This document shows, one piece after another, positions 21,685 to 22,536 of a stretch of 64,000 bases of DNA. Position numbers and translations under genes: made by a program. Source of the stretch: Adlercreutzia sp. ZJ473 (GTDB taxonomy: Bacteria; Actinomycetota; Coriobacteriia; Coriobacteriales; Eggerthellaceae); the NCBI RefSeq assembly GCF_013185065.1, contig NZ_JAAVTO010000005.1, positions 1-64,000 of the forward strand. The letters run 5' to 3'. The notes under the pieces are model-generated. The model ran no database searches, was not told the DNA's origin, and saw only the letters and a list, made by a program, of their open reading frames with translations. The stretch's first letter is position 1. Each line of letters opens with the position of its first letter.

Positions 21685-22157
21685 GATAGCATGCGCCGCA
21701 CAGCGGGAAGGGAGCGCGCGGCCAAACGCCTTCGCGCAACACGAGCGCCACACGACGCAGGCAGCTCATCGCGGAACGCAGGCACCTTGCCAAGCGCCGA
21801 AGCGCCTTCGCGCCCTGTACGGCATGCCGAGCGCCATCGCGCCTTGCGCAACGCGCGGCCAGACGCCTTCGCGCAACGCCCCGGCCAACAGCCGTCAACG
21901 GCCCGGTAACCGTGCGGCGCTCCCGCACTCGCAGGGCGCGCGAGCTGGCATACTTCTCATCGCGGAATGGAAACGAAGCAAGGGTCACCTTGCTTTCCCA
22001 TCCTTTCCTTCTTCTCTCTCCTTAGGCGCTGGCCTCATCCACCAGCGCCGCCCGAGAGCCGCCCTCCCCGGCGACCTCGGGCCGATGCCGCCGCCAACGG
22101 CATCACTCCTCCTTTTAGGGAAGGCGGCCCCACCCCCTGGCCGCCTTCCCGCATGCT
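21685..22157. other. Gene-free spacer with hairpins
   Basis: Imperfect repetitive CGCC/TTCGCG sequence, then two strong inverted repeats: GGCGCTGG/CCAGCGCC near 22025-22050 and a 12-bp stem GGGAAGGCGGCC (22118-22129 with 22139-22150). Neither has a T-tract. No coding frame I can support. Confidence 0.5.
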
Positions 22158-22383
22158 TGCAGAAAAAATCCGGCATTTTGGCAGAAATCTTCAGATATTT
22201 GTCGATTTCTGTGACATGGAGCCCATCTGAAGTTGCCACTCTGCTCATTACGAAAAGATATCGCAGCTGCGATCAGGTACTTTGCACGATAGAATAATAT
22301 CGCAAGTGCGAAAGCTGCCCTCAGCGGGCAGCTGATCGACAAATATCTGAAGATTTCTGCCAAAATCACCTAGAAAATCTGCA
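22158..22383. repeat. 226-bp palindromic MITE-like element with twin operator motifs
   Basis: Arms of 49 bases (22158-22206 and 22335-22383) are inverted copies: the inner 31 bases match perfectly, then 12 mismatched bases, then TGCAGA matches again. The interior is AT-richer than its surroundings. It contains ATATCGCAGCTGCGA (22258-22272) and ATATCGCAAGTGCGA (22297-22311), two operator-like inverted motifs 39 bases apart, and a GCTGCCC/GGGCAGC hairpin. No transposase. Confidence 0.85.
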
Positions 22384-22536
22384 CGGCACGCGGAGCATGC
22401 AAAACACGAGGCGCGCTCATACGACGACAGAGCGCTGGCGCAGCGGCACGTGCTCGTTCGGCACACCAGGACTCGTTGGCGCAGCGACATGCCGAGACGT
22501 CCAGCGCAGCAACGCCAGGGTGCAGCACCCCCGCCC

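Follow-up and report, generated by a model that had tools for sequence, protein, structure and literature searches.

The element lies at positions 22156 to 22385 of the window, by which we mean the whole stretch of 64,000 nucleotides of Adlercreutzia sp. ZJ473 DNA that was analysed. Its parts are as follows:

22156..22385, no strand: whole element, outer motif to outer motif, 230 bp
22156..22166, + strand: left outer motif, C[GT]TGCAGATTT, here CTTGCAGAAAA; its TGC is invariant in 54 of 54 half-elements, at a fixed distance from the arm
22175..22206, + strand: left arm, ATTTTGGCAGAAATCTTCAGATATTTGTCGAT
22207..22334, no strand: core or spacer, free in sequence and locked in length, inverted at the orthologous locus of Adlercreutzia sp. 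ZJ176
22262..22271, no strand: first CGCA-NN-TGCG dyad, specific to this copy, the motif singled out in a preliminary description
22270..22285, - strand: central motif, a degenerate copy, GCAAAGTACCTGATCG, in the register of the family, 61 and 67 bp from the inner arm ends
22301..22310, no strand: second CGCA-NN-TGCG dyad, specific to this copy
22335..22366, - strand: right arm, inverted
22375..22385, - strand: right outer motif, CGTGCAGATTT

The arms are 32 nt each, 100% complementary and separated by 128 nt. Beyond them lie a non-matching patch and then matching outer ends of the C[G/T]TGCA type (CTTGCAGAAAA and CGTGCAGATTT), and an alignment of 54 half-elements identified this outer motif as a component of the family. 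The palindrome with perfect arms, and with matching ends past a mismatch patch, had been reported in the preliminary description; it is real, with arms of 32 bp and the earlier end points within about 2 bp of ours. The sequence ATATCGCA-NN-TGCGA, which had been said to occur twice, does so exactly (22258-22272 and 22297-22311), and its two dyads lie in and beside the centre of the element. A comparison of the window with Rfam gave no match. Just left of the element, at 22118-22150, there is a separate perfect hairpin of 12 bp (GGGAAGGCGGCC/GGCCGCCTTCCC).

Copies, spacing and core inversion in Adlercreutzia

A genome search with the element found 15 loci in the window's genome (G000), and hence at least 15 scattered copies, together with 12 loci with these arms in Adlercreutzia sp. 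ZJ176 (G002), while the search of a third genome of the genus (G001) gave no match to window-type arms. This copy number is far beyond chance and bears out the earlier view of a dispersed, MITE-like palindrome, as opposed to a single-copy sequence fixed in place. The arms are common to all copies, and the cores are unrelated among the copies of one genome. With zero indels, the 54 aligned half-elements follow the consensus C[GT]TGCAGATTT-n8-(A/G)TTTTGGCAGAAATCTTCAGATnTTTGTC.

The spacing of these parts follows the DNA helix. Total inter-arm lengths are quantised at 170/171, 181 or 192/193 bp, and nearly every core contains a version of CAAAACMSCAGGTC, which lies 50, 61, 71 or 82 bp from one arm and 46, 56 or 67 bp from the other. 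Both the arm-to-arm and the arm-to-centre distances keep to a helical phase of 10.5 bp (p 8e-7 and about 1e-6, respectively, with R 0.97-0.99 in Rayleigh tests at 10.5 bp). An independent test on the commonest arm type of another genus, g5 (G006, G051, G130 and G131), gave the same 10.5-bp phase (p 5e-7), and most of the some 60 motif copies in that genus lie at the middle of inverted repeats whose gaps are phased.

We compared 11 orthologous loci between the window's genome and Adlercreutzia sp. ZJ176. Core length is equal in 10 of the 11 pairs and exactly 10 bp apart in the other one, at a core divergence of 16%. Gaps per substitution come to 0.014 in cores as compared to 0.099 in flanks, a roughly sevenfold deficit in cores, and just 2 of 21 flanks agree in length. 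The locked length and the rarity of gaps are the picture expected of free spacers between helically phased sites. Transitions and transversions number 180:33 in cores and 253:82 in flanks, and the transition excess of the cores is compatible with the near-neutral drift of a spacer. A structured RNA was rejected, as core folds had mixed z-scores and no consistent strand, and homogenisation of the two arms within one copy was not significant (p 0.06).

Three of the 11 pairs differ in the orientation of the core with respect to its flanks (window/L103, L068/L113 and L072/L114). About 4 of 14 comparable orthologous pairs are inverted in genus g5, two of them judged from one flank alone, which brings the inverted cores to 7 of about 25 orthologous pairs, mostly among the more diverged ones. 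Such inversions, and the layout of a short segment between long inverted repeats, would fit an inverton, that is, a switch in which a site-specific recombinase flips the core and toggles a neighbouring gene. We consider this quite improbable, because inversion stays well under the 50% of rapid switching and falls mostly in diverged pairs, the orientation of the centre relative to genes is mixed, convergent placements exist (8 convergent, 7 divergent and 37 tandem in genus g5), and the protein adjoining the elements has no recombinase domain. A phase-variable promoter was rejected on the mixed orientation, the low share of inversion and the convergent placements. The invertible promoters of Bacteroidales also have inverted repeats, of about 30 bp, and the short segment between them occurs in both orientations (e.g. 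PMC8748976), but inversion here is slow, the centre is phased, and there is neither a promoter logic nor an adjacent recombinase.

The preliminary description had further taken the two internal motifs to define a mobile regulatory cassette carrying operators. The two dyads match exactly, and the orthologue retains them as CGCANNTGCG in the same places despite 18% core divergence; however, they are missing from the other members of the family bar one single occurrence, and the closest start codon downstream lies about 470 bp off. Moreover, the asymmetric centre is oriented both ways relative to the neighbouring gene, and genus g5 elements also occupy convergent intergenic regions. What is conserved are the arms, the centre and the helical spacing. 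The dispersed palindrome of the first reading stands; its cassette is extremely unlikely, and the data lend no support to a regulatory role. The dyads of the window (22262-22271 and 22301-22310) are 39 bp apart and fully conserved in the orthologous inverted core, and they could be a local operator.

Several loci have a history of their own. At three loci (L127, L128 and L129) that have the element in the window's genome, G001 carries other palindromic repeats, of the GAAGCCC..GAGGCATTTCGCC / CGAGAAGCGC type, and L128 additionally has an element of this class whose arms read TTTTTGGCACAGATTGACG. In Adlercreutzia sp. ZJ176, two copies (L106:3700-4600 and L107:3740-4640) both lie inside another dispersed repeat, GTGTCATCCTGAGCGGAGC...GAGTCGAAGGATC, and this pair is a segmental duplication; a clean transposition of the L106 copy was rejected, since the duplication includes the flanks. 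For copy L064 of the window's genome, a decayed left end is still present in Adlercreutzia sp. ZJ176, and an exact empty site was rejected on this account. Because that left end was kept, the copy was lost in Adlercreutzia sp. ZJ176 and not gained in the window's genome.

Sister elements in the Coriobacteriales and their mobility

Sister elements occur throughout the Coriobacteriales, an order of gut actinobacteria. The central motif is present in 104 of the 138 genomes of the family, with a reversed-pattern control of nearly nil, and its contexts across the order are very different, with lineage-specific inverted arms around one common centre. Across the taxonomic class as a whole, the motif falls chiefly within this order; at least one clear case lies beyond it (L207, with 32-bp arms). 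The number of copies is low and variable among related genomes. At some orthologous loci in sister species the element is kept, with different, species-typical arms on both sides (e.g., L485 and L513).

A nearly identical stretch that includes the motif and codes for a protein of 320 aa (MAEPHDRKPILTIEQQIEHLKQ..., resembling Abi by eye) is found at L211, L212, L213, L215, L222 and L229; it is present in many genomes of two other families and looks like a recent horizontal spread. In G151, eight copies (L175, L178, L181, L190, L193, L195, L197 and L199) have arms on one side only, and on the right they have a conserved hairpin (AACCAGACATATGTCTGGTT) and then CACTGGGGGATTATTCA. Other orders of the class have GCAAAACCGCAGGTCA as single exact copies (L200-L206), which lack inverted arms and in some cases lie near terminators; these armless copies point to a possible role of the central motif that is older and separate.

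An element with other arms (CGAGAAACACGCGATCTGATACCG) but the same centre lies in frame within iorA of both the window's genome and Adlercreutzia sp. ZJ176, while iorA of G001 is without this stretch. Nearly the same arms are found at an intergenic locus of the window's genome (L233, on C30). At least one arm type has thus moved, because the in-frame copy is missing from G001 and near-identical arms are present elsewhere. By eye, no target duplication was recognised at the copy ends, and there was no clean empty site for comparison. Spread by phages was rejected, as neither the arm pattern nor the partner protein described below had a match in viral contigs.

One insertion in frame, together with a palindromic, intergenic and multi-copy element of no coding capacity, would also fit the ordinary kind of MITE family that belongs to a DDE transposase and has an IHF-like host-factor site in its middle, as in the Correia elements of Neisseria. 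Helical phasing of short ends is also known to aid synapsis. We regard such a family as very unlikely nonetheless: the cores are not common to the copies, many arm types surround one centre, length is still locked in old copies, no target duplication was recognised, and no transposase with these arms was present in the collection scanned. In a search for an autonomous element with matching ends, the arm pattern gave only paired short elements in the genome contigs, those of Adlercreutzia sp. ZJ176.

A partner protein family beside the elements

A recurrent unnamed protein emerged from the comparison of open reading frames near the central motif. Its profile has matches in 110 of the 199 genomes of the class, almost all of the same order, often with many copies per genome. 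In four genomes, 7 motif copies have the gene at a distance of up to 600 bp, where 0.20 would be expected (Poisson p 2e-9). When 30 loci were picked by the protein alone, elements were found at 10 of them (reversed-sequence control, 0), and a further 15 genes fetched regardless of motif position had elements at 3. A recognisable element is therefore near 13 of 45 unselected partner genes, and none is near the other 32, which counts against the reading proposed below.

In three genera (G001, G006 and G321) a partner gene lies between two elements, and three paralogues in G006 each adjoin a different arm type (L534, L536 and L538). The window genome's own copy, C55:9749-10558, adjoins element L071, and in Adlercreutzia sp. 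ZJ176 a partner protein of 332 aa is encoded next to the element (L121:4607-5602). Arm similarity tracks protein identity (Mantel r 0.51, p 2e-4), and judging from these associations the partner protein probably recognises the elements beside its gene.

Six residues, D227, W230, E238, Y239, H245 and D254, are invariant in all 26 partner members. A Pfam scan of these 26 proteins gave nuclease-type matches only, with no Y1 transposase and no recombinase domain. MTES_1575 and DUF559 both match below their curated cut-offs, and the family profile has a weak match (E 0.001) with PDB 3r3p, a mobile intron protein which we take to be the Vsr-like EDxHD homing endonuclease I-Bth0305I. These sub-threshold and weak matches hint at a homing-endonuclease-like domain of the Vsr/EDxHD type. 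The weak match with 3r3p concerns the C-terminal domain of the partner, which has invariant acidic and histidine residues. In contrast to that enzyme, the partner is not borne by an intron or intein, is multi-copy per genome, is associated with dozens of paired sites, and has its own N-terminal region without a known domain. A structure model built from one partner sequence was unusable (pLDDT 31).

Comparison with known systems and proposed mechanism

The closest parallel is the REPIN-RAYT system. There, two inverted repeats enclose a short segment, and such pairs are scattered mainly between genes and are passed on vertically over long periods; a genome has several types, and every type goes with a partner gene of its own, located near the repeats or between them (Bertels and Rainey 2011, PMC3116915). 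The present elements likewise consist of two inverted repeats, are dispersed and mostly extragenic, and have a cognate gene that adjoins or is flanked by the repeats, one per type, as was found for 13 of the 45 unselected genes. They differ in several features. In place of the GTAG/CGTC tetranucleotide by a small palindrome, the arm consensus has no such tag; the arms are 28-49 bp and one centre motif serves all types; the spacing is locked to the DNA helix and the cores are not common to the copies. Among the 26 partner proteins, the protein beside the elements appears Vsr/EDxHD-like and is not a HUH/Y1 tyrosine transposase. Because of this protein, the system is not a member of REPIN-RAYT, although it would work in a similar way.

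Two further groups of palindromic elements share some of these features. Correia elements, or NEMIS, of Neisseria are palindromes of 100-155 bp with terminal inverted repeats, of which some lie in frame in genes and the long form has an internal IHF site and binds IHF in vitro (PMC2229807). They resemble the present class in their palindromic form, terminal repeats and in-frame copies; however, Correia copies share their interior, whereas here only arms, centre and spacing are common, and the elements come with a gene for a partner protein. The palindromic elements of Rickettsia (105-146 bp) also lie in frame inside protein genes (PMC2229807), as the iorA copy does here, but neither a phased centre nor a partner protein is described for them. 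No description of elements like the present ones was found in the published literature with the terms tried.

Taken together, we think it fairly likely that the element of the window belongs to a class of paired inverted repeats found across the Coriobacteriales, which would be a REPIN-RAYT-like system with a different protein. The two inverted arms would be the recognition sites of a lineage-specific protein, each standing on a set face of the helix with respect to a central site that is probably one of bending or looping. With fixed faces, the DNA could fold and bring both arms into one complex, made up of the partner on the inverted arms and a bending protein at the centre. Rare nicking or cutting at this complex would lead to occasional inversion and to dispersal. 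RAYTs are thought to act in such a way for REPINs (PMC3116915).

The main tension is that old copies are still constrained, something that an element of purely selfish nature would have no need of. A role in looping maintained by the host is therefore the strongest rival, in which the arms bind a chromosome-organising or regulatory protein and are looped around the central bend, with the copies of use to the host where they lie and mobility being ancient or incidental. The copies kept at orthologous positions, their locked length and conserved arms fit this role, as do the species-typical arms on both sides at the same loci, as if they followed a changing trans-acting protein. Yet there is no promoter bias in genus g5, copy number is low and variable among relatives, one copy lies inside a coding gene, and the several arm types of a genome each have their own partner gene. 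We judge host-maintained sites to be unlikely, with more to be said for them than for a switch or a MITE family.

Long recognition sites are typical of homing enzymes. Within the REPIN-RAYT-like reading, we tentatively propose, as a possibility on the doubtful side, that this is a separate category of bacterial repeat system, in which homing-endonuclease-like proteins have dozens of long paired sites per genome, act in a phased complex of three sites (arm, centre, arm), and co-evolve fast with the arms, possibly driven by the protein itself through cleavage-driven arm conversion. Such fast co-evolution, if true, would explain the different arms at the same loci in sister species.

Going by this comparison, systems made up of an element and its partner, as in REPINs, appear to have more than one origin, the present one with a Vsr/homing-type nuclease, and to preserve a precise helical geometry for long periods. 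The partner family has no name, is multi-copy and is present in most sampled Coriobacteriales genomes, that is, in gut Eggerthellaceae and their relatives; the elements therefore give these genes a testable function, and the several pairs of paralogue and arm type within one genome are ready-made tests of specificity. As for the centre, candidates for the protein that binds it are HU and a 97-aa protein with an S13-like H2TH domain (PF22525, like mycobacterial IHF), whose gene directly adjoins one of the elements (L073:4357-4650).
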